IMG/VR virus record: IMGVR_UViG_3300002131_000090
Location: 62,001-126,000 of that record
Strand: one strand, 5' to 3'
Source of the DNA: a virus
DNA length: 64,000 nucleotides
Position numbers and translations under genes: made by a program
In this document: positions 851 to 21,803 of the stretch, one piece after another
Position numbering within the stretch: the stretch's first letter is position 1
Layout of the letters: the number at the start of each line of letters is the position of its first letter
The notes under the pieces: generated by a model
Databases searched by the model: none
Told to the model about the DNA's origin: nothing
Seen by the model: only the letters and a program-made list of their open reading frames with translations

Positions 851-922
851 TTAAATAAGTTTTATTGCAGGTTTACGTTTTGTTATTTTACTATCAAAAC
901 TGCTTACACAACTTTTAGTAAT
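851..922 (-). pseudogene. Remnant of a radical-SAM 3' end (tail copy 1)
   Basis: One frame of this gap reads ITKSCVSSFDSKITKRK, then PAIKLI and a TAA stop at 853-851. The last residues of the radical-SAM protein encoded just upstream (2352-3464) are ITDSCVSSADSKIPKRKV. Over 17 codons 14 residues and 38 of 51 bases agree, with stop codons near the same place. No start codon or complete domain accompanies it. It is a detached C-terminal tail, from a deleted paralogue or left by insertion of the 937-2352 gene between two tail copies. A frameshifted C-terminus of the 937-2352 gene is also conceivable, since the frame stays open for a few codons back into that gene. Confidence 0.7.
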
Positions 923-936
923 ATATAAAAATACCT

Positions 937-2352
937 TTATTCTAAATTTTTTGCTACATAGTTTTCTATAAACTGTTTTGTTTTATCTAACAATAATTCA
1001 TCCTTAAAATCTTTTTCGCGGAGTTCTAATAAATCTTTCATATTACAACGTAGTGTTGTACTAAATTCTCCCAGTTGAAATCCTGCAATTTTTCTATATT
1101 TGTAGGATCTATTATTATTATCTTTTGCTATCTTCATTAATTTAGTATGTACTAAGTCACCATTTGTCCAGTTAACAAAGTTATCATCAGTAAACTTGTA
1201 TCCGTATTTTTCATAGTTTTTTTCAAATTCACTTACCCATTGGTGTTTATTAATAACATTAATAGGATTTATATAAAGAGCCCAGTAATACCAACAACTC
1301 ATATCGTTGTCTATCATCCATTGTAAATCTATTTCTTCTTGTTCACCGGACCATCCCGGAAGTCCAACAATCATACCCATCCACCAGTTAGTTTTTCCTT
1401 TCCATCGGGTTTTTAACTCTAATAGAAATTCTTTAGCATACTGGCCGTTCCAACCTTTTCCTATTGCTTTTGAACCTTGTGCTTGAAAACTTTCAATACC
1501 AAAGAATGCGCTGCGTAAACCCGATTCGGGTAGTAAATCTATCATTTCTGGGTATGTTGCTAACAGATCAATTCTTATATAAGCAATGTACTCTAATTCA
1601 AAAGGTAACGATTTGCTAATACGATAAATCATTTGTACTTTATCCAAACTTTCATTAAGTGTATCATCACTAAAGTAATACTTTTTAATACCAAATCTTT
1701 CATAGTTTTGTATTAGTTCAGTTCTTATATCATTTTCACTTCGAATATTAGTTCCTTTTTTACGACCAGTTAACGGAAATTGACAAAACTTACATTTAAA
1801 AATACACCCTCTACTTATTTCAATACTTAGTGTTTCATAGGGTTGAATATAGTCGTCATTGCTATATACTTTTACAAAGTTTTGTATATCAAATTTTGGT
1901 CTTATTTCAATTTGCCTTGACAAACTATCAAGCATTGCTAATGTTTCGTCTTCGGCAAACTGATGTATACGTATCCAATCATTATCCATTATAGGAGACG
2001 TTGAATTTGATCCACCAAGAATCCATTTTATATTAGGATGAGTATTTCTAAAAACATCTCTTAAATGCTGTACCCACTTCGGATATACAATGCCGCCGAC
2101 TGTTACACTATTTAACTCAATTCCGGTTACTTCCCAAAAGGTAGTACTTACTCCAAAAGCAAGAGTGGTGTTATCGATATGTTTTTTAGCAATCTCTTCT
2201 ATTATATGAGGTTGTAGTTTAAAACAAAAGTCTATTACTTTTACAGTGTACCCAAACGTTCTTAGCCAAGAAGCAAGTTGATATTGGCCACCACTACGCA
2301 CAGCGTAATGCTCCGGTTCTTCCATTCCGGCAAAAATAATAAAATTTGTCAT
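937..2352 (-). CDS. Radical-SAM protein with B12-binding-like N-terminus
   Basis: 471 residues. The canonical radical-SAM motif is RGCIFKCKFC, with cysteines 183, 187 and 190 that would hold the 4Fe-4S cluster. The first ~150 residues have the alternating strand/helix look of a Rossmann-type cobalamin-binding domain (GGQYQLASWLRTFGY, ILGGSNST), as in B12-dependent radical-SAM enzymes, but no DxHxxG motif was found, so cofactor binding is uncertain. Conserved radical-SAM landmarks follow, such as YFSDDT and FFGIESFQ. Its start overlaps the stop of the upstream gene by one base (TAATG), implying translational coupling. The gene lies between two copies of the tail of that upstream gene. Substrate and reaction unknown; methyl transfer or ring chemistry would be typical for the family. 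Confidence 0.85.
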   Translation of the reverse strand: MTNFIIFAGMEEPEHYAVRSGGQYQLASWLRTFGYTVKVIDFCFKLQPHIIEEIAKKHIDNTTLAFGVSTTFWEVTGIELNSVTVGGIVYPKWVQHLRDVFRNTHPNIKWILGGSNSTSPIMDNDWIRIHQFAEDETLAMLDSLSRQIEIRPKFDIQNFVKVYSNDDYIQPYETLSIEISRGCIFKCKFCQFPLTGRKKGTNIRSENDIRTELIQNYERFGIKKYYFSDDTLNESLDKVQMIYRISKSLPFELEYIAYIRIDLLATYPEMIDLLPESGLRSAFFGIESFQAQGSKAIGKGWNGQYAKEFLLELKTRWKGKTNWWMGMIVGLPGWSGEQEEIDLQWMIDNDMSCWYYWALYINPINVINKHQWVSEFEKNYEKYGYKFTDDNFVNWTNGDLVHTKLMKIAKDNNNRSYKYRKIAGFQLGEFSTTLRCNMKDLLELREKDFKDELLLDKTKQFIENYVAKNLE

Positions 2353-3464
2353 TAAACTTTCCTTTTAGGTATTTTACTGTCTGCACTACTTACACAGCTA
2401 TCAGTTATACAAGGCATTGGTTTGTTAAATAGCGTAAAGCCTGTTTCGATATTACCAAGTGGAACATCGTGACAACTATAACTACGCTTTACGCTGCCGT
2501 CGGGTTCGCGTATGATAATACCTTGATACCCAGCATTACAATGCCATCCTTTAAACTTGTTAAAGTTAAAAGCGTTAAATCGTTCTGCTTGATCCATATA
2601 GTATTTATTACCGTTAGAATCCGCCATTTCAATTTGCATATGCCACGGCACACTAGAATCGTTCTTTTCGTTAATTTCTGTAGGTACTTGAAAATTAGGT
2701 GTAGGACGCTCCGCCCACTTACGCTTGCTTTCTGTGTACGCACGTTGCGGCATACCGTTGTGTAAACGCTTTAGGTTGTCGTCGGTGTAGCCATCTACCA
2801 CTCGACTAGCTGTAGGGTCGCTTTGAGGCTTCAGCGTGACGTTTATACCTTGCTCGTGAAAGAACAATGCATTGTCCCAATCCTTCTCAAACCACTCTGG
2901 TACCATAACCATGTTGATAGTTACTTGTACATCATGCTCTTGACAGAAAATTAACTTGTCTGCAAAATCCTGCATCTTCTCTGGTGTGCTAAGATGTTCA
3001 GTGTGCAAACTTGCTGTAATACTTGCACGGTGAAATGGCGTTACTGCTTCTACGTACTGCTCAAACCACGCCATATTGCGTGAGCAGTTTGATGTCATAT
3101 GAACACTAGTGTAATTAGTATTACCAACATCATTAGCAAGATGTTTGAGAATGTCCAAGTAACCAGGGTGAAAAGTAGGCTCGCCTCCACTAAGACTAAA
3201 ATGAAAGCTATTAAAACCGTTGTCACGTGCCTGCCTTTTTATTTCGTCAATTGTTGTAAGACATAGCTCTGTTGGTCTATGGTCTTTTCGATCAGATCTA
3301 GCGTACGGCCAACAGTAACTACATTTATAGTTACAGAAACGGCCCAATAGCCAACTAACAGTAAAAAGATCGCGGTAAAGAAGAGTCCTTTGCCCGACAC
3401 TAACAATGTCGTCAAACGGGATTTTTGTAAAATCATAATTACTCCATTTTAAATCTTCAGTCAT
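2352..3464 (-). CDS. Radical-SAM/SPASM-like protein
   Basis: 370 residues. RFCNYKCSYC carries cysteines 44, 48 and 51 for the radical-SAM cluster; SGGEP (92-96) is the SAM-contacting GGE motif. Several cysteines between about residues 305 and 357 (HCNAGYQG, SCHD, PCITDSC) suggest auxiliary iron-sulfur binding of the SPASM or twitch kind. It is the first minus-strand gene after the divergent intergenic region, and a consensus sigma70-like promoter ends only five bases before its ATG (3464-3462). It is therefore probably the head of a short operon running through the 937 gene to the amidinotransferase. The last codons recur as a detached fragment at 851-922. Peptide or small-molecule substrate not deducible. 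Confidence 0.87.
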   Translation of the reverse strand: MTEDLKWSNYDFTKIPFDDIVSVGQRTLLYRDLFTVSWLLGRFCNYKCSYCWPYARSDRKDHRPTELCLTTIDEIKRQARDNGFNSFHFSLSGGEPTFHPGYLDILKHLANDVGNTNYTSVHMTSNCSRNMAWFEQYVEAVTPFHRASITASLHTEHLSTPEKMQDFADKLIFCQEHDVQVTINMVMVPEWFEKDWDNALFFHEQGINVTLKPQSDPTASRVVDGYTDDNLKRLHNGMPQRAYTESKRKWAERPTPNFQVPTEINEKNDSSVPWHMQIEMADSNGNKYYMDQAERFNAFNFNKFKGWHCNAGYQGIIIREPDGSVKRSYSCHDVPLGNIETGFTLFNKPMPCITDSCVSSADSKIPKRKV

Positions 3465-8856: not shown

Positions 8857-10174
8857 TCCAATATTTCCTATAATTTGGCACAATTTTTAGAAAATCTGTT
8901 TTTCTAATCTTGTCTAATGCATTCATGTAATTCTTAAACATGTTAAATAAGTATGGCTGGTTCTCTGAATCGCCTTCTTTAATAGTTTTAAGTAAAGTTT
9001 TTCTAAACTTGTATATACCTGCAGAATATGTATATGTACTCCCATCATAGGGATAAGGCATTTCATCGTCGATATCTTTTATCATATCGTATGCAGTTTG
9101 TTTCATTTCTTTAGTTAACACTTCGAGACTCAGATATTTTGGTGTTACTACTGTATTTGAAAATGTTATAGTAGCAGTATCTTTGTATTGTTGGAACCAG
9201 TTCCATGTTTGTGCAATATTAAATATATTTGGTGCCATTGTTGTATAAGCTATACACAATTCTATGTTATCAAAAGAAATAAAGTACTGAATCATTTTGT
9301 CTAAGTGATCTTGGTCATAATGTAGGCCGCCTCGACATAGTTGATACAGTTCTCCTATACCTTCAATACTAAGATAGAGTACAATCTTTTTAAATTTTGT
9401 AAGAAGTTCAAAAAATTCAGGATTTATAATTGTTGCATTAGTTGAAATGTCTAAGGTAATACGATCATTCCATCCAAATTCAATTAGCTTTTCTAATATC
9501 TTAATATTTTTATCTTCGTAAAACGGTTCGCCGCCTCTAAATGCAACAAACTGGAGATTTTTAAAATAATCCTTGTTAGAAAATAAGTTTTCTATAACTG
9601 CATCATCAATACTATAATATCCATAAGGATTTTGTTCATTTCTAAAAACTTCGCTGTGTTTCTTTTTTAACTTTTTTTCATCAGGTATCCACGCAGTGCT
9701 TACGTCTCCGTTGCAATGAATACATTTTAAATTACATTTATTTGAAGTGTTAATATCTAAATATATAAAGTCTGGTTTATCAAAGTTTTCAACCTTTGGT
9801 CTACGAATAGGATTATTAAGATTAGGATCACCACGTGTATCAGGGTAGTAGTACTTTTCTTCTAATGTATCTTGTGGTATTCTTGTAGTAAAAAATGTTT
9901 CAAAAAACTTACGTCTACTATGTCCTGCAAACTGTTCTTTTTTAACACAGTTTGAACAACCAATATTATCAGAAAAGTTAATGTGATCTTTTCTTAGGTT
10001 AGACCAGACTTCTCCGTCCCACATTTCGGATAGTGAAGATGTATTAAGATTTCCGAAGTACGGATCTCTAAATATACCGTCTGGCGCTACATTACCAAAA
10101 CTATCGATGCTTAATGCCTTCCACGGTGCAATACATAATGGCTTTGGTATAAGACCTTTCCATTTACTATCCAA
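8849..10174 (-). CDS. Twitch-type radical-SAM protein lacking CC pair
   Basis: 441 residues. The radical-SAM triad is Cys147, 151, 154 in NKCNLKCIHC, with RGGEP further on. The N-terminal domain keeps Cys14 (LCIAPWKAL) and Cys73/Cys76 (CSNC), but the region where paralogues have CC reads GNVAPDGIF, so one auxiliary-cluster ligand is missing. The barrel landmark is YLSIEGIGELYQLCRGG instead of the SIDxxxxxxxYIR form. The start is a TTG at 10174-10172, supported by a very strong Shine-Dalgarno 5 bases upstream and by an 8-base overlap with the amidinotransferase stop. It is adjacent to an amidinotransferase; a second amidinotransferase at the window edge also follows radical-SAM genes. Confidence 0.85.
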   Translation of the reverse strand: MDSKWKGLIPKPLCIAPWKALSIDSFGNVAPDGIFRDPYFGNLNTSSLSEMWDGEVWSNLRKDHINFSDNIGCSNCVKKEQFAGHSRRKFFETFFTTRIPQDTLEEKYYYPDTRGDPNLNNPIRRPKVENFDKPDFIYLDINTSNKCNLKCIHCNGDVSTAWIPDEKKLKKKHSEVFRNEQNPYGYYSIDDAVIENLFSNKDYFKNLQFVAFRGGEPFYEDKNIKILEKLIEFGWNDRITLDISTNATIINPEFFELLTKFKKIVLYLSIEGIGELYQLCRGGLHYDQDHLDKMIQYFISFDNIELCIAYTTMAPNIFNIAQTWNWFQQYKDTATITFSNTVVTPKYLSLEVLTKEMKQTAYDMIKDIDDEMPYPYDGSTYTYSAGIYKFRKTLLKTIKEGDSENQPYLFNMFKNYMNALDKIRKTDFLKIVPNYRKYWNE

Positions 10175-11225
10175 AGTAATCCTCCTTGGAACCTTCTCTA
10201 ACTAAGTCTTGGGTTACGCAATGTATACCACCGTCCCAGAAGTATTGATGTCTAAATTTCCAATAAATTGGTGTAATGCCGTGGTTTTCCATTCGACGAA
10301 ATGCGTCTTTATTAGTACCAGTACATATTACTGCTTCTTCTGATACACTTAAAACATTTACATCAAATACTGTTTCATCAACACAACCAATCCAATGTGA
10401 GAACCATTCTTCTATAAACCCTTTATAAAAACGTTGTTTACGTATTGATGTAAATTCTGTAGGAAGTTCTGTTTCGCTATCTACTTCAATAATATCCCAA
10501 TGTTTTAATTTTTCAGGGATCCATGATTTCTTCCATGTCATTAATACACCAGGTTTTAACAAGGCAATCTTACCATCGCAATGTCCGCCAACTTCAACTT
10601 GGTTAAATGTAAACTCTTCGCCTAATTCTCGTTTTAACCATTCCAAGCCTGCTGTAGTTCCTCTACCTTTTACTGTATCAACGTCACCCGGCAATGTATG
10701 AAACAAGTCCTTACCACATTTGATAATATTTGCAGCATGGAACAGTATTTGACTATTAGCTAGTGCTTCATAAGAAGTTTTTTTGTTTGGAACTTTTGCC
10801 ATTGGCATTGATAGCCAACGCATACCTCTATCATATAGTCCACGACTAATATCTTGATATGCTAAATTTTCAAACATTCTTCCCGAGTCGCCAGTGTAAT
10901 GCTCAACAATAGTTGATCCAAACACCCCTAGCACATCTCTGGGCATAAGTGGGTGATTAGGATATTCACATTGTAACCAAGGTAAGTCAATTGATTCAAT
11001 TTGAGAAAAGTTAAACAAATTGTTAGGTCTATGAACTTTAATACCCATTCCAGTTAACAATGTTACTAGGTTGTCAAGGTCTTCGGCAGTTTCTTCAAAT
11101 ACTCGTTTTAACAAATCACGGGCTTCTGGATCAGGGATGTTATCAAAGTTGTCAGGGCTAAATGCACTTCCGACAATAACTTCTTTTAAAGGCTGAAATT
11201 CTGTATATGTTGCAGGGCTATTCAA
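10167..11225 (-). CDS. Amidinotransferase (AGAT-like)
   Basis: 352 residues from the TTG at 11225-11223; an ATG at 11240 is also in frame but has no ribosome site, whereas GGAGAG lies 7 bases before the TTG and TTGA overlaps the upstream stop. Family landmarks: MPRDVLGVFG near 94-103, FHAANII (His163), GGHCDGKI (His215, HxD), and DGGIHCVTQD with the catalytic Cys336 near the C-terminus. In arginine:glycine amidinotransferases the triad is Cys-His-Asp; the Asp position (FDAAD in human AGAT, recalled) is His here, as in the paralogue at 1-785. The expected reaction is transfer of the amidino group from arginine to an amine through a Cys-amidino intermediate. Flanked on both sides by radical-SAM genes. 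Acceptor unknown. Confidence 0.84.
   Translation of the reverse strand: MNSPATYTEFQPLKEVIVGSAFSPDNFDNIPDPEARDLLKRVFEETAEDLDNLVTLLTGMGIKVHRPNNLFNFSQIESIDLPWLQCEYPNHPLMPRDVLGVFGSTIVEHYTGDSGRMFENLAYQDISRGLYDRGMRWLSMPMAKVPNKKTSYEALANSQILFHAANIIKCGKDLFHTLPGDVDTVKGRGTTAGLEWLKRELGEEFTFNQVEVGGHCDGKIALLKPGVLMTWKKSWIPEKLKHWDIIEVDSETELPTEFTSIRKQRFYKGFIEEWFSHWIGCVDETVFDVNVLSVSEEAVICTGTNKDAFRRMENHGITPIYWKFRHQYFWDGGIHCVTQDLVREGSKEDYFG
10180..10187 (-). promoter_or_regulatory. Strong Shine-Dalgarno for a TTG start
   Basis: AAGGAGGA on the minus strand, 5 bases before TTG at 10174-10172. It is the most complete anti-16S match noticed among the gene starts examined, and it decides for a non-ATG start. It lies inside the last codons of the amidinotransferase gene. 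Confidence 0.7.
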
Positions 11226-12307
11226 TTTATTTCTCTCCATCTGTAACCAAGTACGCTACTGTCTTGTTTTCTGTGCTTGTCTAGTATTTTAAAATAGTTA
11301 TAAACACTAGTAAGATTTTCTATATTTCCTGGTTTTTCTACTATGTTTTTAATTTTTCTTGCAGGTTGATAGGTTTCGCATAATTTGTAAAATATGTCTT
11401 TAGAATAACTATTGCAATGAGACGGATTCATAAACCCGGGCGTAATAGTAGTATTCATTAAATGATCAAGACTTTCTTCTTCGGCCCATCTGCACAAGTT
11501 AGGTAACGTATGTAAATTATAACACGAAACTGTAGTAAAGCAACTGATTTTTTTAGCTATTGTCTTGATTTCTTTAATATTTTTTTCTATCTTTGACCAT
11601 TTGCTAGGCCAGCGTATATATTCATTTATCTCTTTATAACCGTCAATACTTAAATCAACATTAACTTTAAAATTTGAAAGTTTCTCTGTTAGTTTTTTTG
11701 GCCAATTATTTGCATTAGTTGTTAAACGTATAGTAGCTTTACTATTGTTTTTTATCAATACGTCAAGAAAGTCAACAAGATAGTTAGAAACTGTTGGTTC
11801 TCCTCCAGTAAAACGTATTTCGTCTCTGTCGCTCATAAACTCAGCTACTTCGGATAATAATTTAGGATCGTCGTACCAATTGCTGTTGTTGCTGTTGCTG
11901 TTGAACAAGGATCTGTTGTTGATAAACTCGTGATCTGCTGTATTTTTTAATGTTCTAATTTCTAAATCAATTAAACTGCTATTAGTAGGACTACACATCA
12001 TACATGCAAGATTACATAAGTTACCAAACTTTACTTCTGCATCTCTTTTGTTAGAGTACTTGTTTATACCAGTGTAACGTAAACTTTCAACGTTGTTTTC
12101 TTCTTCAAATTTACAATCAGCACAGCCAGACGGCCATTCGTTATTATCTAACGTATCCTCTATGGTTTTTACCCATGCACTGTTTGTATATTGAGATATA
12201 TTATCAGTTACATTATATGAATTTCCAGTATTTCTCCAACTACAGCAAGGCCTTAAATCACCATTAACGTCCATACTTACATGATTTTTAAGCCAATTGC
12301 ATTTCAT
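11222..12307 (-). CDS. Twitch-domain radical-SAM protein
   Basis: 361 residues. N-terminal cysteines Cys3, Cys21-Cys22 (RPCCSW) and Cys62/Cys65 (CADC) form the presumed auxiliary site; the radical-SAM triad is Cys98, 102, 105 in FGNLCNLACMMC; TGGEP and DLSIDGYKEINEYIRWP follow. The N-terminus is shorter than in paralogues, with the first Cys at position 3 (MKCNW in place of xFCxLPW). A run of asparagine/serine codons (NSNSNNSNW, near 11880-11905) makes a small GTTGCT-like simple repeat in the DNA. The start overlaps the upstream stop as TAATG. Member of the four-gene radical-SAM run 11222-16308. Confidence 0.87.
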   Translation of the reverse strand: MKCNWLKNHVSMDVNGDLRPCCSWRNTGNSYNVTDNISQYTNSAWVKTIEDTLDNNEWPSGCADCKFEEENNVESLRYTGINKYSNKRDAEVKFGNLCNLACMMCSPTNSSLIDLEIRTLKNTADHEFINNRSLFNSNSNNSNWYDDPKLLSEVAEFMSDRDEIRFTGGEPTVSNYLVDFLDVLIKNNSKATIRLTTNANNWPKKLTEKLSNFKVNVDLSIDGYKEINEYIRWPSKWSKIEKNIKEIKTIAKKISCFTTVSCYNLHTLPNLCRWAEEESLDHLMNTTITPGFMNPSHCNSYSKDIFYKLCETYQPARKIKNIVEKPGNIENLTSVYNYFKILDKHRKQDSSVLGYRWREIN

Positions 12308-13515
12308 TAATACATCTCCACTGGTATAATTTTAGTTAAATCTTTTTTTGTAAACTTGTCTAAAGATTTCATTTTAATTAAAAATTCTTTCCAGAATTCA
12401 TTATTTGATTCTTCTGACAATATATGATCAATTATTCGTTTCTTTCCTTCGTTTGATAGTTGCATATTTTTAATCTTATCTATATATAAATCTTTTAAGT
12501 TTGCTGGCATATATGCTAAATTTAGATACTTAGGATATCTAACAAGATCTATGCTTTTTTGATTAAAGTTTTTAGTGTTTATATCGCTTGACATCCAGTT
12601 GGATAATTTATCAAAATGCCAAGTAGTTAATACATTTAAAACAGTATGTATTCCAAATATTAAGTTAGTATTATACAATAAGTTTAATGAATAATACCAT
12701 TCTATATTTTTTTCAATAGTTTTCCAATTACTAAGTGTTCTAGCATAATCATTAACTTCTCCGTAGCCGTCAATACTAAAAATTATATTAACTGTTCCAA
12801 TTTTTTTCCAAATTTCAATTACTTCCAACGGAGGACGTTTTGTAACGTTAGTATGATATATTATTTCTAAAGATTCTAAATTAGGATGTACTCGTTCGAG
12901 CTCTTTTAAAAATCCTACATGCTCTACAGACATCATAGGTTCGCCGCCAAGAATTTTTATTAATGTTAATTTTGATAAATCTATTTCTGTAAAATCGTAT
13001 TGATTCATGCTTATAACATTTGTCTTTGCTTTTCCATTAGCATTAATAGTTTCTCTTGGAACTATATGTTCGTCTCGTATGTTATCTACATAAAAAGTTT
13101 TATTATATAGATTTGCCCAACTAGAACTATCAACTATAGTACACATTCTACAAGCTAGATTGCAAAGATTACTAAAAACAATTTCTAAATACTCTAATTC
13201 AAATTTTTCAACATTAACTGTATTAGCAAACTGCTTATTAAATAGTTGACGCATACTTTCTTTACCGGCAGCTTCCTCGTTCCAACATTTAATGCATCCG
13301 GGAAGTTTTTCTCCATTTTGCATTTTTTGTTGTAGAAGTTTGATATAGTTTTCGTCTTTAATTGCCTCGTGCGGTGGTTGAAAGATGTTATACTCGTTAT
13401 TCTCGTCTTTTCCAATAAAGAATCTGCAACATGGAGTAACAATTGGACCGTCTGGATGAGTGCCTAGTGCAACGTGTTTCCACAATAAAGAACACGCATT
13501 TGGATGTAACGTCAA
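12307..13515 (-). CDS. Twitch-domain radical-SAM protein
   Basis: 402 residues. Cys8, Cys29-Cys30 (TPCCRFF) and Cys74/Cys77 (CIKC) in the twitch segment; Cys118, 122, 125 in FSNLCNLACRMC for the SAM cluster; LGGEP and FSIDGYGEVNDYAR in the barrel. Translation appears to begin with TTG at 13515-13513, sharing a TTGA overlap with the stop of the preceding gene, the same arrangement as at the amidinotransferase gene. Ends in EMY with TAATG into the next gene. Likely works on the same class of substrate as its neighbours; whether the array members act sequentially is unknown. Confidence 0.87.
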   Translation of the reverse strand: MTLHPNACSLLWKHVALGTHPDGPIVTPCCRFFIGKDENNEYNIFQPPHEAIKDENYIKLLQQKMQNGEKLPGCIKCWNEEAAGKESMRQLFNKQFANTVNVEKFELEYLEIVFSNLCNLACRMCTIVDSSSWANLYNKTFYVDNIRDEHIVPRETINANGKAKTNVISMNQYDFTEIDLSKLTLIKILGGEPMMSVEHVGFLKELERVHPNLESLEIIYHTNVTKRPPLEVIEIWKKIGTVNIIFSIDGYGEVNDYARTLSNWKTIEKNIEWYYSLNLLYNTNLIFGIHTVLNVLTTWHFDKLSNWMSSDINTKNFNQKSIDLVRYPKYLNLAYMPANLKDLYIDKIKNMQLSNEGKKRIIDHILSEESNNEFWKEFLIKMKSLDKFTKKDLTKIIPVEMY

Positions 13516-14915
13516 TTAAAAATTCCTTTCATTTCAGGAAATGTTTCAGCAAATGTAATTCCTCTTTGCTTATCGCACAACTCTAGAAATTCCTTCATCT
13601 CAGGTAAACGTACACTCCAGTCTTCTGATTCCATAAACTGTAACATACCCATTAACCTATCTACGCCGTAACTAGCAGCTCTCCATGTTTCAAAATCAAC
13701 CTTGCCTTTATGCCAGCTAGGAATTCCTTTTTCCCAATTAGCTTCCCACCACGGTATAAATTCTTCATACTTTTTACGGCATTCTTCTTTAAACCATTTA
13801 GGAAGTACTTTGACATTAAGATGTGGAGGATGGTAAACAAAGTGATAGTTTACCCCGCCTGCGCCAAAAGGCCACATATTAATTTTCTTAAAGCCTTGTT
13901 CTAATTTCCATTTAATAAGATCGGGTATGTAATATATGTTTAGTGCTTGTACTGCACATGCAATTGTGATTTCAGTATTGTTTGGAGTTTGCGTGTCTAG
14001 TATATGAAATACTTCTTCCATACGGTTCCATTTACTAGGATAACGAATGTAATCGTTCATTTGCTCAATGCTGTCTATTGAATAATGGAAACGTACTAAT
14101 TTAAAATGACTCCATAACTCGAATAAATCTTCTCTCCATTCAACACCGTTTGAGTTGTAACGTATTTCTAAGTCTTTTGCATAACCCATCTTAATGGCAT
14201 ATTCAAGTATTTCGTAATGTTCTTCAATAATAAGACTTTCACCGCCAGCAAAGTAAATTTGTTGCATACTGGGCATCTGTTCGTAAAATTGTTTCCAAAA
14301 TGTAGGATTTTGCTTATGCCAGTTGTAACTACTGCCGTTGTAACTGCCTTTGTTTTCCCATTGCATTGTTTCTTTAAGAGATTCATTTTTTACAGCAGGA
14401 AAGATTGATTTGTAATCTTTAATCCAACCGCTACTATCATGCGGTGAACACATTACACAAGCTAACTGACACTTTGTGCCAAAACGTAAATCAATGTATG
14501 CTAGTTGTGGCGGAACGCGGCCGTCTTCCTTTGTGTCTGCAAGTATTTTATCAACATCAACACGCTGACTCCAATATTCTGTTTCCCACATACGTTTACT
14601 ATTATGCCCTGCTGCTTCTTCTTTATAACATTTTATACAGCTAGGCGGCTTTTCTCCTGCAAGCATTTGCTTACGCACATTCCTCATATATGTGCTGTTC
14701 CATGCTGTTTCAAAGTCGCTAACATTTAAATTGCTAGGTTTACCATCTTCTGTTTTAAGAATACCAACTTGTCCTCCGTGTACTTTATCATTTGTTGCAC
14801 CAACACTGCTTGCATTAGCTGTACAACATACACGCATACTACCATCTGGGCGTGTACTTAGATGTACCCAAGGCAATAAGCAAAACGTATCAGATGGCAT
14901 CTTTTTATCAGTCAT
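13512..14915 (-). CDS. Twitch-domain radical-SAM protein
   Basis: 467 residues from the ATG at 14915-14913. This start was chosen because GAAGG lies 7 bases upstream and it puts FCLLPW at residue 11, as in paralogues. An in-frame extension back to 14999 (28 very basic residues, KRKKLKKRK) or 15035 is possible; the 14999 ATG would overlap the upstream stop. Motifs: Cys12, Cys30-Cys31 (RVCC), Cys93/Cys96 (CIKC), radical-SAM Cys149, 153, 156 in FGTKCQLACVMC, AGGES in place of GGEP, and YSIDSIEQMNDYIRYP. It is the longest of the CC-type group, with an aromatic-rich insertion (KINMWPFGAGGVNYHF). Confidence 0.86.
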   Translation of the reverse strand: MTDKKMPSDTFCLLPWVHLSTRPDGSMRVCCTANASSVGATNDKVHGGQVGILKTEDGKPSNLNVSDFETAWNSTYMRNVRKQMLAGEKPPSCIKCYKEEAAGHNSKRMWETEYWSQRVDVDKILADTKEDGRVPPQLAYIDLRFGTKCQLACVMCSPHDSSGWIKDYKSIFPAVKNESLKETMQWENKGSYNGSSYNWHKQNPTFWKQFYEQMPSMQQIYFAGGESLIIEEHYEILEYAIKMGYAKDLEIRYNSNGVEWREDLFELWSHFKLVRFHYSIDSIEQMNDYIRYPSKWNRMEEVFHILDTQTPNNTEITIACAVQALNIYYIPDLIKWKLEQGFKKINMWPFGAGGVNYHFVYHPPHLNVKVLPKWFKEECRKKYEEFIPWWEANWEKGIPSWHKGKVDFETWRAASYGVDRLMGMLQFMESEDWSVRLPEMKEFLELCDKQRGITFAETFPEMKGIFN

Positions 14916-14988
14916 TTGTCGGCCTTCTATCTTTCTTTTCTTTAATTTTTTTCTCTTGTATGCTTGCTTTGTTGCAACTTTAAACAAC

Positions 14989-16308
14989 TTATAATCCATC
15001 GTACCAGTAATCGGACAATTCTGGAAAATAGTCAAATATATTGTTATTGTTTATTCTATCGCACATATTGAAAAAATTACAAACGTTTTTTGTAAGTTTA
15101 GGATTGTTGTAATCTGAATTTTTTAAAAAGTTATAACAATTAGTTGCATGATGAAGATAGTCTTCAACAAAATAACGGTCAGTTGAATAATCACCAACAT
15201 GTGCTATTGTCCATTCGATATCAGCTAATGCCTTTAATTTTAAGTCATCAGGTAAATGGATTGACGAAGTAGGATTTTTAAGTACTAAACTTGAATGAAA
15301 ACCAAGATCGTTCTCTATCCAGTCAAACATTATGTCTTTCCATCGCAAGGCAGAAAACATATTAAATGTTACAGTTCCAACTATATATCTTCTACTTTTA
15401 CCTTTAAAATAATGACTAAATTTTTTAATATTATCTGTTAGAAGTTCTATGTTACCTTCGGCTCTAAAATAATTATATGTCAAAAAAGATGTATCAATAC
15501 TTACACGTACTATTAATTTATTAAACTTATCCCAGTATTCAAAATATTTTTCGATGTTGTTAATGTTGAAATTTGAATTATAATCAAGATCTTGTTTATA
15601 TGAAGTTTTAGATGTATTAACTAGATAGTCTAGCCATTCTGTATGTTCAGGGGCTAATAATGGCTCGCCACCGGAAAATTGTATTAACTTAGTTGAACTT
15701 AAAAGTTCTTTTATATCTTCTTTATATTTAGATTTACTAGTCAAACCGTTTTTAAAATGATTATTAAAATTGTCAAACGGCACATCAGTGTCACCGTTTT
15801 CAATTCCTACTACATGATCGTATATGTCAAAGTTTTCTTTGACTGATAGTTTTTCAATCCACTTAGTAGACGAATCAGGCCCGCAGTGCATACATCTTAG
15901 ATTACATAATAGACTCGGTCTCATTTCAATACGCACAAAATTTTCAATTTTAGCAGTCAATGGATCTTGTTTAATTCTTGAAATTAATGTATCTTTTTCT
16001 TTTTCATCAAGTCTAAGATTATAATCTTTAAAAAAATCCATTCTTGGAGATATAGCGTTATGCGATTCAGCATACCAACAAGACTGGCAGTTTTTATGCT
16101 GTTTTCCTGTATACAATGCATCTCTTATTTCTTTTGCTTTGTCACTATTAAACACATCAATAAATCGTTCTTCTTTCCAGTTACCTATGTTTTGTTGACC
16201 GCGATAACATGTTCTAACATCGCCTACTTGATCAAGGTCGGTTCCAATATACGGAGCAAAACAAAAGGTTTCAGGATTTAATCCAAGTTTTTTTAATTGT
16301 TGTTTCAT
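14989..16308 (-). CDS. Twitch-type radical-SAM protein (CY variant)
   Basis: 439 residues. N-terminal Cys16 (TFCFAPY), Cys34 followed by Tyr (RTCYRG) instead of a CC pair, and Cys74/Cys77 (CQSC) still give four possible auxiliary ligands. The radical-SAM triad is Cys135, 139, 142 in SLLCNLRCMHC; SGGEP follows; the barrel landmark is RVSIDTSFLTYNYFR. A NATAAATA box lies 7 bases before the ATG and a tail remnant of another radical-SAM gene just before that, so this gene starts a transcriptional or recombinational unit. No clear Shine-Dalgarno before the ATG. Confidence 0.85.
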   Translation of the reverse strand: MKQQLKKLGLNPETFCFAPYIGTDLDQVGDVRTCYRGQQNIGNWKEERFIDVFNSDKAKEIRDALYTGKQHKNCQSCWYAESHNAISPRMDFFKDYNLRLDEKEKDTLISRIKQDPLTAKIENFVRIEMRPSLLCNLRCMHCGPDSSTKWIEKLSVKENFDIYDHVVGIENGDTDVPFDNFNNHFKNGLTSKSKYKEDIKELLSSTKLIQFSGGEPLLAPEHTEWLDYLVNTSKTSYKQDLDYNSNFNINNIEKYFEYWDKFNKLIVRVSIDTSFLTYNYFRAEGNIELLTDNIKKFSHYFKGKSRRYIVGTVTFNMFSALRWKDIMFDWIENDLGFHSSLVLKNPTSSIHLPDDLKLKALADIEWTIAHVGDYSTDRYFVEDYLHHATNCYNFLKNSDYNNPKLTKNVCNFFNMCDRINNNNIFDYFPELSDYWYDGL

Positions 16309-16329: not shown

Positions 16330-16362
16330 TTATATAAACTGCGCACTAAATGGATCAAACTC
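16330..16362 (-). pseudogene. Remnant of a SPASM radical-SAM 3' end (tail copy 3)
   Basis: Read in the frame ending at TAA 16332-16330, this gives EFDPFSAQFI and stop. The protein of 18843-19910 ends EFDPFGEQFK and stop at the same position; 25 of 33 bases agree including 15 consecutive ones (TTTGATCCATTT core). It overlaps the last codons of the FkbM methyltransferase gene in another frame. It is too short to be a gene; I read it as the leftover 3' tail of a paralogue. The match is shorter than in the other two cases, hence lower confidence. Confidence 0.5.
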
Positions 16363-17086
16363 GGTCCGAGTCTGACTTTCTGTAAATTACTTCAACCCAG
16401 TCAGTCCTTCCGTTTAGAGGATTTTTACTAATATGTGATATATCATATAGTTCAAAGTTATACGGTATAATAAGTTTTTCAAATTCTAAAAAACTAATAC
16501 GTGTTTCGTATAAATCGTATAAATTTAATTCGCTAACTATTATGTCAGTGTTATTTAAAATGGACGACGCACCTTCTAAAATTAAAAGTTCAGCGCCCTG
16601 TACATCCATTTTTAAAATATCGACCTTTGTAATATTTGAATCTTTTAAACAATTATCAAGCGTATCTACAGCAACCGTTTCAGTAGTATTATTAAAGAAA
16701 TTATGATGTCCTTCTTCGGGGCGATTGACTGCTATTGAATCAGTACTAAGTTTGTTAAGATTAAAAAAACTACTCAACATTATTTGATGATGATTAACAT
16801 TAAACTCACTAGTTCCTTGAAAATTTGATAATGCAATATTATATAATGTTACATCAGTATAGTGTTGTGTATTTTCTTTTAAATAATTAAACGACTGCAA
16901 TACAGGCTCAAAACTATGTATAATTGCCAAAGGCCATAGTGATTTAAAATAGTCAACACTTTGTCCTATATTTGCACCGGCATCAATAATAACAGGATTT
17001 TTAGTATGTACTAAACTTTTTAATAAATTACCTTTATTAAATTTTTCTTTAGAAATTTCACTACGAGTATGTTCCGGAGTATACAT
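16355..17086 (-). CDS. FkbM-family methyltransferase
   Basis: 243 residues. The class I SAM-binding motif is VIIDAGANIGQS (residues 32-43), the acidic end of strand 2 is HSFEPV, and DILKMDVQGAELLILEGA near residue 155 is the hallmark DVxGxE segment of FkbM enzymes. Family members usually O-methylate hydroxyls of sugars or polyketides, so a glycan methyl cap is likely. The start overlaps the upstream 2OG-oxygenase stop as TAATG. The 3' end runs into the tail remnant at 16330-16362, and a short palindrome (16359-16371) spans the stop. First of a block of four genes lying between two radical-SAM tail copies. Confidence 0.88.
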   Translation of the reverse strand: MYTPEHTRSEISKEKFNKGNLLKSLVHTKNPVIIDAGANIGQSVDYFKSLWPLAIIHSFEPVLQSFNYLKENTQHYTDVTLYNIALSNFQGTSEFNVNHHQIMLSSFFNLNKLSTDSIAVNRPEEGHHNFFNNTTETVAVDTLDNCLKDSNITKVDILKMDVQGAELLILEGASSILNNTDIIVSELNLYDLYETRISFLEFEKLIIPYNFELYDISHISKNPLNGRTDWVEVIYRKSDSDRV

Positions 17087-17607
17087 TAATAAAACTCCTT
17101 TTCTGAAAGCATCAACAACAGTGTACGTCTATTTTCTGTACATTCCAAACTATCAAAATCGTGCCACGTATGATCATTTCTAATAAATCCAGAGCCACGG
17201 TTTGGTAACCAATTGGTAGTTTTGACGTATGTAGTTGTGTCTTTTTCTTTAAATAATTGTGTGCCACTGCCTGTGTTAGATATAGCTAATACAAATGTCA
17301 TAACTTTTAATGGATTATCATTGTGTATTTTATTATATGCCCAGCCAGGCTTAATAACATCAAATTCTATAGCAGGATACAAATTTGTTATATCGTCAAT
17401 ACCTGCAATACTAGCAATTTTGTGTATATACGGAACTAATAGATTATACATTTCGGGGAAGTTATTTGAACGAACCTGTATGTTATTACGATCTCCAGTA
17501 ACTGATATATTTTTACTAAATTCATTAACCCGATCAAACGCATCAATATCTAATAAATTAGTAATTGTAAAATGCTTCCACGGATCATTGTAAAATTCTA
17601 TTTTCAT
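17086..17607 (-). CDS. 2OG-Fe(II) oxygenase-like protein
   Basis: 173 residues from the ATG at 17607, which forms a TAATG overlap with the upstream stop; an earlier TTG/GTG-type extension to 17634 is less likely. Iron ligands: His95-x-Asp97 in KIHNDN and distal His149 in TWHDF; Arg160 or 161 in NRRTLLLML is the likely 2OG-carboxylate ligand. A GSGTQLF strand lies between them. This is the compact form of the double-stranded beta-helix oxygenases found in phage and polysaccharide clusters. Next to a second, distinct oxygenase gene (17607-18149) and an FkbM methyltransferase, so hydroxylation followed by O-methylation is plausible (inference). Confidence 0.72.
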   Translation of the reverse strand: MKIEFYNDPWKHFTITNLLDIDAFDRVNEFSKNISVTGDRNNIQVRSNNFPEMYNLLVPYIHKIASIAGIDDITNLYPAIEFDVIKPGWAYNKIHNDNPLKVMTFVLAISNTGSGTQLFKEKDTTTYVKTTNWLPNRGSGFIRNDHTWHDFDSLECTENRRTLLLMLSEKEFY

Positions 17608-18149
17608 TATACTAGTACTTCCTTGTTTTTCCAATTTGAATTTACATAATTCACAATAACACTTGTTCTATCAGATGTTAATGGCGATAATGCATGTATT
17701 TCTGTGCCTGTATTATTAAAAAACCACCCACAGTTAACATGTGTATCAGTGTTAATATTATTAAAATTTGTACTAATATCACTATCACTTAAATAAATTT
17801 GTAATGTAAAAAGTTTAGCTGCATCATCTGTGTGTCCTTCTAGCCAACTTGCTTTGCTGTCTTTACACAATTCGATACGTGTTCTGCACGAACTATAATC
17901 AGTTCCTGTTATATTAGAAAATAACTGCTTTGTTTTGATACTATCAAAATAAGAAGAAAGTTCTTGATAACTACTGTTATTAATTTGATGTGTCCAAATT
18001 CGAGAAATTCTATCAGTTCTCTTACCTGACAATAATGCATACTCGTATTTTTCTGCACACGTAGTTAATTGTAACAGTTTCGCCTTATCAAAAAAATTAA
18101 CAAATTTAAAAATTTTAAATCCAACATCTGCTTCTGTATAATTAAACAT
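17607..18149 (-). CDS. 2OG-Fe(II) oxygenase
   Basis: 180 residues from the ATG at 18149, which overlaps the stop of the upstream gene (ATGTTTAA); a longer start at 18200 would overlap by 59 bases. HxD at His106-Asp108 (GHTDD), distal His152 (EIHAL) and Arg161 (DRTSVIVNYV) give the complete facial triad plus 2OG anchor, spaced as in Rps23/prolyl-hydroxylase-like proteins. FTLQIYLSD is the strand after the first His. Probable product: hydroxylated sugar, lipid or amino-acid side chain. Paired with the neighbouring oxygenase gene, with which it shares little sequence, suggesting different substrates. Confidence 0.75.
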   Translation of the reverse strand: MFNYTEADVGFKIFKFVNFFDKAKLLQLTTCAEKYEYALLSGKRTDRISRIWTHQINNSSYQELSSYFDSIKTKQLFSNITGTDYSSCRTRIELCKDSKASWLEGHTDDAAKLFTLQIYLSDSDISTNFNNINTDTHVNCGWFFNNTGTEIHALSPLTSDRTSVIVNYVNSNWKNKEVLV

Positions 18150-18846
18150 CAAACATCCATTTCGTTTTTCTTTTATATAATACGCAACTGTCATTAACAT
18201 ACACTGCTTTATTTTTTAATTCAAATTTAACTATAGGATCAAGTTCAAGAGGTAATGCCCACGAATTATTCTTAATGTTTATACACTCTTTATACACAAT
18301 TTCCTGTTCCGCAGCGTTTCTGATACTTCGAGGATGAGTAATTGCAGTACTTGATAGAAAATAAAGATCGTTGCAATTAAACTCTGCAGTTGATATATCA
18401 TTGAAAGATACATCATTAAAATCGGATATTACAGTGTTACTGTAATCAGTAATTATTACGTCTACCTTATCAGTATATTGCCCAAGAAAGGACAATCTAG
18501 TTTGTCCTGGGTGTAATGCAACTTTTTTATTCTTAAAGTAGTGAATATTTAAAGGATGCAGTAGTTTACATCCTTTTTTTAGATCATCTAATATTCGAAA
18601 AAATGAATATAATTTAACTATACTGTCAGTATCAATTGTAGCATTATTACTATAAACTAACGTACTATGTTTAAATACAGAATGTATATCACCAGCTATT
18701 TTCTTTTGAATATTTCTTTTTAAAAAAATATTATTAGTGTCTTCTAACGTTAATTTAGCAATATATGTATTTGTATTATGCATACTATCAAACTCGTTAG
18801 TTAGATTTACGAAATGCAAATAATCATTTAATTTAATTATGCTCAT
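18142..18846 (-). CDS. Uncharacterised protein
   Basis: 234 residues; not recognised. It contains a segment LLHPLNIHYFKNKKVALHPG followed by TRLSFLG and VDVIITDYS, which looks like two alternating strand-helix units and could belong to a nucleotide- or sugar-handling fold, and a histidine/proline pair (HPL, HPG) that is the most conspicuous feature. No signal peptide, no membrane helix, no metal-binding cysteines. The start overlaps the SPASM radical-SAM stop as ATGA and the stop overlaps the oxygenase start. Part of the four-gene block lying between the two radical-SAM tail copies. Confidence 0.7.
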   Translation of the reverse strand: MSIIKLNDYLHFVNLTNEFDSMHNTNTYIAKLTLEDTNNIFLKRNIQKKIAGDIHSVFKHSTLVYSNNATIDTDSIVKLYSFFRILDDLKKGCKLLHPLNIHYFKNKKVALHPGQTRLSFLGQYTDKVDVIITDYSNTVISDFNDVSFNDISTAEFNCNDLYFLSSTAITHPRSIRNAAEQEIVYKECINIKNNSWALPLELDPIVKFELKNKAVYVNDSCVLYKRKTKWMFDV

Positions 18847-19910
18847 TTAAATTGTTCCCCAAATGGATCAAATTCGGCGCCGCATTTCATTGAGCATACT
18901 TTTAATTTGCCAGAGGCACAACTTGGTTTACTCCAGCTATCTTGTATTCTATCAAATATACCAGTAGCAAATACTGACTCTAATCCGTTACGTGCATCTA
19001 ACACACTTTTATTAGGAATAAAATCCCATATCTGTTCTACTTTAGGATCTTTATGCCACCATTTATACATACGGCCCGCAGTCCAACAACACGGTAATGC
19101 CAGACCTTCTGCTGTAATAAACAAACTGTTGTCTTTTTTAACTTTACAAATAATAGGTGCAGCATCATAGTATGCATCCATACTTCCGTATTTGTTAATA
19201 ATAACGTCTTGTTTTTTAAGTGCAGCATTTTGATATTTTTCATCTGGCTTTTTAAGTTCTGTTGTTTCGTTGCCTTTACGATCAACTGCTTGATGCTTGT
19301 CTTTAGGCTCTACCTTTGATGTAACAAATCTACCAGTTTTTTTAGCAACAAATTTTTCAAATCCCCATTTACTAGCAAGTGCTTCTGCTTCTTCTACTTG
19401 ATGTTGATTGTGTTCAAATATTAAAAAGTCCCAACGTGCTCTGCCGCCTGCTTTAATAAACGCTTTTATGTTGCGCTCTACATTAGTCCAACTAACGCCT
19501 TGACGATATATATGATTGGTGTCTTTTAATCCGTCAACACTAAAAATAACTGCTCCATTGCTGCCGATAGTTTTAGCAAGTGCATGCCACCATATTGTGT
19601 TTTTAGCACCAGCATTAGTGTTCATGCTTAACCACATTTTAGGATTGTGATCTCTAAAATATGTAAAGATTTCTAAAGTATCTCGTGCAATAATAGGATC
19701 GCCTAAGTTTCCGCACATATACATAGTATCTAACTGTGAAATAAATTCTGGCAGGAATATCTTTTTACAATCTTCAATAGTAAGTTCATCTAAATTAATG
19801 TGCGGATTGACACCTTTACCGTTCATATTACGATCACACATAGGACAACTAGCTTGACAGTTTTGCGTAACTTCTAAGTGTATACTTCTAATATCTTCGT
19901 ACTTATACAT
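18843..19910 (-). CDS. Radical-SAM/SPASM protein
   Basis: 355 residues with the radical-SAM triad at the very N-terminus (VTQNCQASCPMC: Cys18, 22, 25), a glycine-rich CGNLGDP in place of GGEP, FSVDGL, and a C-terminal SPASM-like cysteine set (IICK, LPCCW, SCASGKLKVCSMKC). This is the classic layout of peptide- or small-molecule-modifying SPASM enzymes and differs from the twitch-first family that dominates the island. It overlaps the 19903-20172 gene by 8 bases; that small product lies immediately upstream as RiPP precursors often do, but has no clear core. The last ten codons recur at 16330-16362. Confidence 0.88.
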   Translation of the reverse strand: MYKYEDIRSIHLEVTQNCQASCPMCDRNMNGKGVNPHINLDELTIEDCKKIFLPEFISQLDTMYMCGNLGDPIIARDTLEIFTYFRDHNPKMWLSMNTNAGAKNTIWWHALAKTIGSNGAVIFSVDGLKDTNHIYRQGVSWTNVERNIKAFIKAGGRARWDFLIFEHNQHQVEEAEALASKWGFEKFVAKKTGRFVTSKVEPKDKHQAVDRKGNETTELKKPDEKYQNAALKKQDVIINKYGSMDAYYDAAPIICKVKKDNSLFITAEGLALPCCWTAGRMYKWWHKDPKVEQIWDFIPNKSVLDARNGLESVFATGIFDRIQDSWSKPSCASGKLKVCSMKCGAEFDPFGEQFK

Positions 19911-20172
19911 CCATTACCAACTTTATATCTTTGCCAGGGCCGCCAACACTTGGCAGGAAAAAGTATTCTGCCATATACCACTTGATTACTGCACGATACC
20001 ATTTTTGACTGTCGTGATGTGCTTGTTTATTAAACTGGTGTATATTATTATTAGTGGTCTGCATTGTAGCAAGTGCTCTTGCACTTTCAAGTTGCAATCT
20101 TCTAACTGAAAACTGATCTAACAATACTTCAATACTTTCGTCTCTAAGACGATCACTGTTATTTAAATCCAA
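19903..20172 (-). CDS. Small helical protein upstream of SPASM enzyme
   Basis: 89 residues if started at the TTG at 20172; no ATG start is available nearer than Met37. The sequence is mostly helical (ESIEVLLDQFSVRRLQLESARAL) and ends FLPSVGGPGKDIKLVMDV. Not recognised. It directly precedes and overlaps a SPASM radical-SAM gene, so a precursor-peptide or partner-protein role is conceivable but unsupported; the length and helical look also fit an ordinary small phage protein. Its presumed start lies inside the duplicated methyltransferase tail (20163-20253). Confidence 0.5.
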   Translation of the reverse strand: MDLNNSDRLRDESIEVLLDQFSVRRLQLESARALATMQTTNNNIHQFNKQAHHDSQKWYRAVIKWYMAEYFFLPSVGGPGKDIKLVMDV

Positions 20173-20266
20173 TTCTCATAAACCTTGTGTACTTTTCTAG
20201 TTCTAGACTTCCTTTATATAATACATTAGTTAGAGGAGTTTGTCTACTAAAATCTTCAAGATTCAT
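20159..20266 (-). pseudogene. 35-codon copy of methyltransferase C-terminus (tail copy 2)
   Basis: An ATG-started 35-codon frame reads FSRQTPLTNVLYKGSLELEK and then ends YTRFMRIGFK; over 34 residues 29 match the C-terminus of the methyltransferase encoded at 20958-21803. It begins with an ATGA overlap on the sulfotransferase stop, so it may be translated, but it lacks the SAM-binding domain and is best read as a 3' remnant. No Shine-Dalgarno. The DNA match (8 mismatches in 91 bases) shows the duplication is fairly recent. Confidence 0.75.
20163..20253. repeat. Direct repeat, copy A (flanks sulfotransferase gene)
   Basis: 91 bases that match 20962-21052 with 8 mismatches in the same orientation. 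The two copies lie on either side of the sulfotransferase gene (20263-20961). Recombination between them would delete that gene while leaving an intact methyltransferase 3' end. Confidence 0.85.
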
Positions 20267-20961
20267 TTTAGTTTTATACGACCGTTATTATTATTTAAAT
20301 ACGGGTGTGACAATACAGTTAACATTTTTTCACCCCCTATCTGCCTAAGTCTGTTATAATTAATTAAAATGCTATCTTTTGGCTGAGATTTTTTTATATT
20401 ATTTTTTTTAAATGTCATTGATTGAGTATTAGATAATTTTAAATTCTTATAATCTTTATCATAGTCAAATTTTAAATCTTCGTAATAAACAATTTCATTT
20501 AACAATTTATTTTTGTGATTCCATTCAGCAAGATCTATAATACTTTGGTATCGACTTTCTAATGTAGATAAAAAATAAGTTTCATCTATAACAAATTTTT
20601 CTAAATAAGGAGTATCCGATGCTTGCCATAAATTAGTTTTTTCTGCAATTAGATTACTTATAGTTGATTCAACTAAATCTTGTCTTAATATAGATATTAT
20701 ATACCAATTGTTATTTAAAAACGCAGTTTTGTCAGCATCCGATAATCTTTTGTTGATGTTAGAAAAATGGTCTTTACACACGTTATTAGGAGTTCTTTTA
20801 ATTGTTTTAATAATACGTTTTATATATTTTTGAGAATAGCTTTCCATATGTTCGTAATTAAACGGCTCGGGGTATTTTTTAAATTTTATATTAGAATTTA
20901 CAAACATATTTAGTAAATATGTGCTACCTGTTCTAGACTGAGAAACAATTAAAATATTCAC
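20263..20961 (-). CDS. PAPS-dependent sulfotransferase-like protein
   Basis: 232 residues. The 5'-phosphosulfate loop is at the N-terminus (SQSRTGSTYLLNMF, residues 7-20) and the 3'-phosphate segment is ILRQDLVESTISNLI near residue 90, the two diagnostic motifs of the sulfotransferase fold. Family members move sulfate from PAPS to a hydroxyl or amine of carbohydrates or small molecules, so this could sulfate the polymer assembled by the glycosyltransferases. It starts with GTG in a GTGA overlap with the methyltransferase stop. The gene is bracketed by ~91-bp direct repeats made of the methyltransferase 3' end, the clearest sign of recent acquisition in the window. Confidence 0.85.
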   Translation of the reverse strand: MNILIVSQSRTGSTYLLNMFVNSNIKFKKYPEPFNYEHMESYSQKYIKRIIKTIKRTPNNVCKDHFSNINKRLSDADKTAFLNNNWYIISILRQDLVESTISNLIAEKTNLWQASDTPYLEKFVIDETYFLSTLESRYQSIIDLAEWNHKNKLLNEIVYYEDLKFDYDKDYKNLKLSNTQSMTFKKNNIKKSQPKDSILINYNRLRQIGGEKMLTVLSHPYLNNNNGRIKLK

Positions 20962-21803
20962 TTAAATCCGATCCTCATAAATCTTGTATACTTCTCTAGT
21001 TCTAGACTTCCTTCATATAATACATTATTTAGAGGAGTTTGTCTACTGAAATTGTTAAGATCTGCACTGCAATTTACGTGTTCGTTAACTTCAAAGTAGT
21101 TATTACTTTGCAATACTATTAGTACGTTATAAGGAAGTTTGTCATACCATTCTGCAAAATTTGGAATGTGTTCACAACTTGTATTAATAATAGTATTAGG
21201 CTTGTCTGTTATCGGATAACTCATTCTGTTGTTAGCATTACTCCAATATTGCCAAGTATGTTCATTATAGTCTATATCCATAATGTCTTGAGTTAATGAT
21301 TTAAAACGCCATTGATCAGTAAACCACGGAGCATTAAATACTTCTGCAATATTAACACAAGTAGGATCAATATCAAAACTTCTAATTTTATCTATTCTAA
21401 GATTTTTTTCAAATAACATTGTAGCAAGTGTAGCATACCATCCTGCACAAAGAAATACTGTTCCTAAATAAGGATTAATTCTTTTAAGTTCTTTAACTAG
21501 CCATAGTTTACTTTGTAGCTGTCCTCTACTAAAACAGTCATTCCATATTTCTGTTTTATTTACAAAAAAGTTTTTAAATGCTGCGGTAAATTGTGTATCA
21601 ACATAGCGATCTAACATAGGCCATAGTTTCCAAGTATTATCTTCCATAATCAATTTGCGAAGATCATCTTTATTTTCATCTGTAATTATTCTAAAGATAC
21701 TATGTAAATCGTGATCAATATATGCTCTACGCAAATCAGTTAACTTACTATTAGTTGGATATAATAACTCAAATCTATCCAATAGTTCAAATGTTTGAAG
21801 CAT
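20958..21803 (-). CDS. Class I SAM methyltransferase-like protein
   Basis: 281 residues. GTVFLCAGWYATLATMLF (around residue 115) resembles motif I of Rossmann-type methyltransferases, with FDIDP at the end of strand 2 as the ribose-binding acidic residue; PNTIINTSCEHIP follows as strand 4 and VLIVLQSNNYF as strand 5. About 90 N-terminal helical residues are of unknown role. The C-terminus (FSRQTPLNNVLYEGSLELEK and ten further residues) is duplicated 800 bases downstream. The start overlaps the upstream glycosyltransferase-like gene by 17 bases. Substrate unknown; a small molecule or sugar is likely given the neighbours. Confidence 0.78.
   Translation of the reverse strand: MLQTFELLDRFELLYPTNSKLTDLRRAYIDHDLHSIFRIITDENKDDLRKLIMEDNTWKLWPMLDRYVDTQFTAAFKNFFVNKTEIWNDCFSRGQLQSKLWLVKELKRINPYLGTVFLCAGWYATLATMLFEKNLRIDKIRSFDIDPTCVNIAEVFNAPWFTDQWRFKSLTQDIMDIDYNEHTWQYWSNANNRMSYPITDKPNTIINTSCEHIPNFAEWYDKLPYNVLIVLQSNNYFEVNEHVNCSADLNNFSRQTPLNNVLYEGSLELEKYTRFMRIGFK
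20962..21052. repeat. Direct repeat, copy B (native methyltransferase 3' end)
   Basis: The coding 3' end of the 20958-21803 methyltransferase gene; partner of 20163-20253 (8 mismatches in 91 bases, same orientation). Confidence 0.85.

Follow-up and report, generated by a model that had tools for sequence, protein, structure and literature searches.

A window of 64,000 nucleotides (nt), covering positions 62,001 to 126,000 of the IMG/VR virus record IMGVR_UViG_3300002131_000090 (146.6 kb, possibly incomplete), carries three sites, A, B and C, at which accessory genes (cargo) are enclosed between a conserved core gene and a second copy of the 3' end of that gene (tail copy). These tail copies are probably scars that unequal illegitimate recombination left when related phages infected the same cell, with selection acting as a filter. 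The observations behind this reading are the repeats, empty sites in relatives, an occupied/empty pair of loci, one joint with microhomology, a start codon embedded in the duplicated gene end and cargo located behind the same core genes in other phages. Relatives of the cluster were collected by IMG/VR scans, which gave about 350 loci (designated below by L numbers).

All three repeat pairs described in an earlier sequence-only reading of the window were recovered at the same coordinates, on the minus strand and in the order full gene, cargo, tail copy: pair A (20962-21052/20163-20253) with 83 of 91 nt identical, pair B (2358-2408/872-922) with 38 of 51 nt and 14 of 17 residues identical, and pair C (18843-18875/16330-16362) with 25 of 33 nt identical. 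The full upstream genes are donA at site A and two conserved radical-SAM genes, rSAM_B (2352..3464) and rSAM_C (18843..19910), at sites B and C, all on the minus strand. An unbiased tblastn scan within their own loci detected pair A at E = 3e-17 and pair B at E = 6e-6. As for the short pair C, a stop-anchored score of at least 37 appeared against non-homologous DNA about once per 17,225 tail-by-6-kb trials, the remaining three matches at this score being the real C and L249 copies; given some tens of gene tails in the region, such a pair is expected by chance well under 0.01 times. The peptide scan anchored on stop codons recovered A, C and the copies in L025 and L249, and was symmetric up- and downstream once full-length paralogues were included, so that direction is not shown by that scan alone. 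The tail lengths varied from about 33 to 105 nt over six cases and no constant att core was present at the repeats: both length and sequence differed from site to site, with no core common to different genes.

The tail preference was evaluated in an orphan scan, in which 2,880 open reading frames (ORFs) were represented by windows of 45 residues taken at the tail, in the middle and at the head, and copies outside long ORFs were sought on the plus strand. It produced five tails, no middles and no convincing heads. On inspection, two of the four head matches were weak, one was the L187 repeat read out of frame and one was probably a full paralogue with a broken frame. After subtraction of the window's own two cases, the ratio of tails to others was 3 to 0, which makes the tail excess suggestive, not strong. 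The minus-strand scan recovered A, B and L187 (which is on one contig with L277), and its other matches were all likely antisense artefacts.

Site A consists of four overlapping or closely adjoining minus-strand elements. The full-length donA (20958..21803, 281 amino acids (aa), 33 relatives in the scan) is followed by cargo A, a sulfotransferase-like ORF (20263..20961, 232 aa) whose GTG start overlaps the donA stop, by tail copy A (20159..20266), a 35-codon mini-ORF with a stop, homologous to donA residues 248-281, and by the conserved next gene, p89 (19903..20172). The copy is slightly longer than previously reported: the mini-ORF MNLEDFSRQTPLTNVLYKGSLELEKYTRFMRIGFK extends from window position 20266 down to 20159 with its stop, while its ATG overlaps the cargo stop codon and the p89 TTG start (20172-20170) is located inside it. 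In protein, the tail is 85% identical to its own donor donA, a distant relative of which in Pelagibacter phage Mosig is annotated as a putative methyltransferase. A collection scan for relatives of cargo A returned none; an ORF of this type (28%) stands directly behind donA in L107 and L249. As to the earlier functional labels, no Pfam family was found for the site A "sulfotransferase", and the radical-SAM part of the name given to cargo B (937-2352) was supported by a match to Radical_SAM alone, leaving "B12-type" unconfirmed.

Relatives free of cargo and with one continuous 3' end, anticipated by the sequence-only reading, do exist: donA directly abuts p89 in 101 of the 115 loci counted (95 distinct sequences in a second count), with a single 3' end in those examined. 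No near-identical relatives of the window were returned by the pattern search, which possibly missed some, and empty sites corresponding to site A are known from more distant relatives only. Another 14 loci have cargo between donA and p89 with no detectable tail copy, so the tail is not obligatory at this place. The p89 start is a TTG within the last donA codons in 81 of the 95 cargo-less sequences and an ATG overlapping or adjoining the donA stop in the other 14; in the cargo loci lacking a tail, p89 had its own ATG or GTG start in 12 out of 12 cases (a thirteenth row, L107, was excluded, being without donA there). As these loci are related to each other, no formal P value was assigned. Since the p89 start lies inside the donA 3' end, a copied tail at this place would be functional, and cargo would be admitted only when the donA end is duplicated or when p89 gains a new start. 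On the simplest reading, entry into the overlapping donA-p89 pair thus requires one or the other, and it is plausible that the tail scar has been retained here for the start codon of the next gene.

An occupied and an empty site were found in the pair L187/L188. The empty L188 is 98.9% identical to the occupied L187 over 2.2 kb ending at the rSAM_B end, with three base differences within rSAM_B before the joint, and 99.9% identical over the next 717 bases beyond it. Between these matching flanks only L187 has a nitroreductase-like gene and then a 63-nt copy of the rSAM_B end (7049-7111 vs 7761-7823, 61 of 63 identical), followed by the same downstream ORF, and no recipient sequence was lost at the insertion. 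L188 has only one rSAM_B, to which the L187 tail corresponds with almost no differences. In L187 the switch occurs at or near AAAGAGGAAA. No donor of any of the cargoes was close enough for a crossover to be mapped. A stretch AGAGGAAA, which from its sequence would serve as a Shine-Dalgarno-like element for the downstream ORF, lies within the copied rSAM_B end. In L144, rSAM_B is immediately followed by a nitroreductase 85% identical to that of L187, and several further phages have weaker homologues at this position. The pair represents either a recent gain with target duplication at a conserved 3' end or a loss by recombination between the repeats. Among the phages compared, only L187 and L188 share rSAM_B together with that downstream ORF, so that an outgroup cannot order insertion and precise excision; insertion in L187 is favored because the arrangement of the cargo already exists in L144. 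Together with the cargo-less relatives, this pair supports the earlier proposal that conserved 3' ends of genes are places of accessory-gene gain or loss. A 20-bp tandem repeat (CAAAGAGGAAAGTATTATGA twice) lies at the left joint of the insertion in L187 (7100-7140) and duplicates the apparent ribosome-binding site and start of the nitroreductase.

A readable joint was present in L025, whose lineage is shared with L026 and L092 and has the order donA, radical-SAM gene, tail copy, second radical-SAM gene, rSAM_C. At this ILLEGITIMATE joint a copy of the donA tail (62 nt long, with 87% identity) meets 77 nt of internal rSAM_C sequence, which has 95% identity to the resident rSAM_C, and both parts share the 6-nt TATATC at the point of fusion. 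The joint is illegitimate, with microhomology, and is a single case. Here too, TTG starts are embedded: that of the second radical-SAM gene inside the tail copy and that of the first inside the full donA.

At site B, the cargo following rSAM_B is a radical-SAM ORF of 471 aa (937..2352, minus strand), and the tail copy (ITKSCVSSFDSKITKRK, 872..922, minus strand) continues in frame beyond the homology to another stop. Homologues of this cargo (74-75%) stand directly behind rSAM_B in L141, L143, L146 and L147, with no tail copy detected there; an empty site followed by the gene that lies downstream in the window was not found. At site C, the cargo (16355..18846, minus strand) comprises four ORFs: 18142-18846, 17607-18200, 17086-17634 and an FkbM methyltransferase gene (16355-17086). 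A homologue of the second of them directly follows rSAM_C in L266. Tail copy C (EFDPFSAQFI*, 16330..16362, minus strand) is fused with the FkbM 3' end. The FkbM stop codon falls within the copy, which adjoins another accessory gene, 14989-16308. In 14 of 69 loci, rSAM_C is directly followed by a homologue of the radical-SAM gene 13512-15035, so an empty state exists for site C as well. Copies B and C look like relics.

Compared with the full genes, the synonymous differences in copies A, B and C exceed those of neutral decay (P = 0.014, 0.006 and 0.033, respectively), which indicates that the copies diverged mostly within working genes, as alleles from two phages would. Identity also breaks at or near gene ends, for example rising from 55 to 92% where tail A ends. 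The p89 gene has 92% DNA identity to L197, both its neighbours being far lower (55% for the tail just upstream and 75%), and is apparently a single small gene exchanged between phage lineages. A mosaic was seen in rSAM_B (window 2352-3464): its first quarter has 97% DNA identity to L150 and the remainder at most 90% to any relative seen, so that the gene appears to hold an intragenic recombination breakpoint. The break at p89 and this mosaic indicate that these phages exchange DNA often and that the exchanged stretches can end at gene borders. A single donor for site B, sought by regional similarity, was rejected, as the best relatives change along the gene.

In the unequal exchange that we consider the probable origin of the tail copies, two genomes share a core gene; one of them would break immediately after an accessory gene that follows it, and the other a little farther upstream, within the core gene's own 3' end. 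Their joining with little or no homology would then produce the full core gene, the accessory gene, the leftover core-gene tail and the original downstream gene. Selection would keep this order, with the core gene whole on the left and the translation start of the downstream gene preserved on the right; elsewhere than at donA-p89 the copied tail would be a decaying relic, and later homologous exchange in and around the core genes would blend the flanks. Of this scheme, co-infection, the enzymes involved and selection as the filter are inferred. Several results weigh against this reading. Tails B and C do not contain the start of the next gene. The joints at A, B and C are too old to be read for microhomology. 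Both L187 copies are recipient-like, so that a two-sided local event fits that locus better than one unequal crossover. In L249 and L107 the order is reversed, with the rSAM_C tail right behind p89 and the full rSAM_C several kb downstream; the order of donor, cargo and tail put forward in the sequence-only reading therefore holds at A, B and C but not as a rule, most cargo at donA-p89 also having no tail, and L249 needs a different history. Furthermore, no sequenced donor is close to the window's cargo (the site A homologues reach 28-36%), two of the site C genes have no homologues beyond the window, and RecA (PF00154) was not found in the record, in which UvsX-type recombinases were not searched for. 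The L249/L107 region is rearranged also in another respect: donA is absent before p89, and a block of donA, the sulfotransferase-like gene and rSAM_C lies downstream.

The closest alternative, itself rather unlikely, is homology-facilitated insertion of a donor fragment made up of a core-gene 3' end and its cargo, either linear or circularised by end joining. Such a fragment would enter by homologous recombination in the core gene and an illegitimate far end, or as a circle by one crossover, leaving the target gene partly duplicated. It yields exactly the observed order of core gene, cargo and partial core gene, it has a precedent in Escherichia coli with duplications of 109-950 bp of the target gene (PMC3240628), and in the donors of the cargo it is likewise preceded by this core gene. 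The intact recipient flanks of L187, with both copies recipient-like, also suit it better than a genome-wide chimera, but the joint in L025 contains sequence from a second gene and has the look of two genomes unequally joined, neither a circle nor a fragment was observed, and most predictions of the insertion are common to the unequal exchange. Sites A, B and C do not separate the two: L025 favors unequal exchange and L187 the insertion. The simpler alternative named in the sequence-only reading, in which a second full-length core gene behind the cargo was deleted down to its tail, is improbable. It fits L249 and L107, where the ancestral rSAM_C place holds the tail only, and tandem donA-like genes are indeed present in L009, L015 and L023. 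These tandem paralogues are only 29-40% identical in protein, compared to 85% between tail A and its donor, none of the relatives seen has a second complete copy where tail A lies, and the single rSAM_B of L188 is a nearly exact match to the L187 tail. Finally, site-specific integration restoring gene 3' ends, by an integrase, a resolvase or a homing endonuclease acting in trans, would give a similar order and 3'-end location, but is very improbable: in agreement with the earlier remark that no integrase is visible, Phage_integrase, Resolvase, GIY-YIG, HNH and HNH_3 gave no match in the record (146.6 kb and possibly incomplete) in searches run with positive controls, the tails vary in length without a core shared across genes, and no recombinase was seen in the cargo. 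An integrase or homing-endonuclease origin was rejected on these empty family searches.

By protein, the nearest named relatives of the window are weak matches, Pelagibacter phage Mosig among them, which places this phage among marine phages with few sequenced relatives. The conserved order of the cluster is the 21787-23130 gene, donA, p89, rSAM_C, variable genes and the 13512-15035 radical-SAM gene. More than ten radical-SAM-type ORFs are present in window 1-26000 and L194 11569-18785, together with two amidinotransferase-like ORFs (window 10167-11240 and L194 17760-18785). The same cluster also includes a nitroreductase-like ORF (3536-4516, plus strand), an FkbM methyltransferase and oxygenase-like and aldehyde-dehydrogenase-like ORFs, all these names being given partly by eye. 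In its make-up, this set of marine phage genes resembles a cluster for modification or one of natural-product type.

Promoter-stem-loop cassettes (PeSLs), which are intergenic regulatory elements involved in modular shuffling in T4-type phages, are similar to the tail repeats in being short sequences shared at gene borders and tied to the shuffling of accessory genes. Unlike PeSLs, the repeats described here are coding sequence, namely 3' ends of genes that overlap or abut; the genes of site A and those of L187 overlap or nearly abut, leaving little room for an intergenic promoter and stem-loop (no dedicated scan was made).

Each element of the process is already known separately: illegitimate gene addition (PMC2993671), long target duplication (PMC3031569) and one-sided homologous insertion (PMC3240628). 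In the last system, one-sided or single-crossover events duplicating part of the target gene are documented, and most of the recovered E. coli events of this design were target-gene duplications ascribed to a single crossover of a circularised molecule. Homology-facilitated illegitimate recombination shares with the present loci an illegitimate or end-joined flank and a target partly duplicated beside the new DNA, and possibly a homologous other flank, the core gene. It differs in joining a laboratory plasmid to a bacterial chromosome, as against natural phage genomes, while the scars in the latter lie at gene 3' ends and seem to be kept in part for the start of the downstream gene. Insertion with long target duplication (Nobusato et al. 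2000, as cited in PMC3031569) likewise leaves genes between long, variable direct target repeats, recognized by comparison of two close genomes, and L187/L188 has this form, with occupied and empty sites, the 61/63-nt repeat and variable tail length. That system was described for restriction-modification genes in bacterial chromosomes, in contrast to the metabolic-type accessory genes at phage core-gene 3' ends. T4-related phages, according to PMC2993671, are expected to make illegitimate exchanges; they have in common with the present loci the addition of accessory genes to a core genome at junctions without mobile-element signatures, and phage recombination enzymes able to join dissimilar sequences. 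A word search of PMC2993671 gave nothing on duplications or remnants, whereas here the scars are visible and of differing age.

The part of the literature searched contained no account linking gene-tail scars with embedded start codons. As a tentative generalization, which we regard as possible but not probable, start codons embedded in core-gene 3' ends might decide where and how phages add genes, the overlap being duplicated on entry. If true, gene-tail scars would be a readable and datable record of gene acquisition across phage genomes. The gain of accessory genes by phages without integrases has mostly been inferred from mosaic patterns, and here the step itself is visible: with an empty site, an occupied site, an illegitimate joint and a plausible reason for the scar to persist, gene gain at core-gene 3' ends becomes countable in metagenomic phages and testable in the laboratory.

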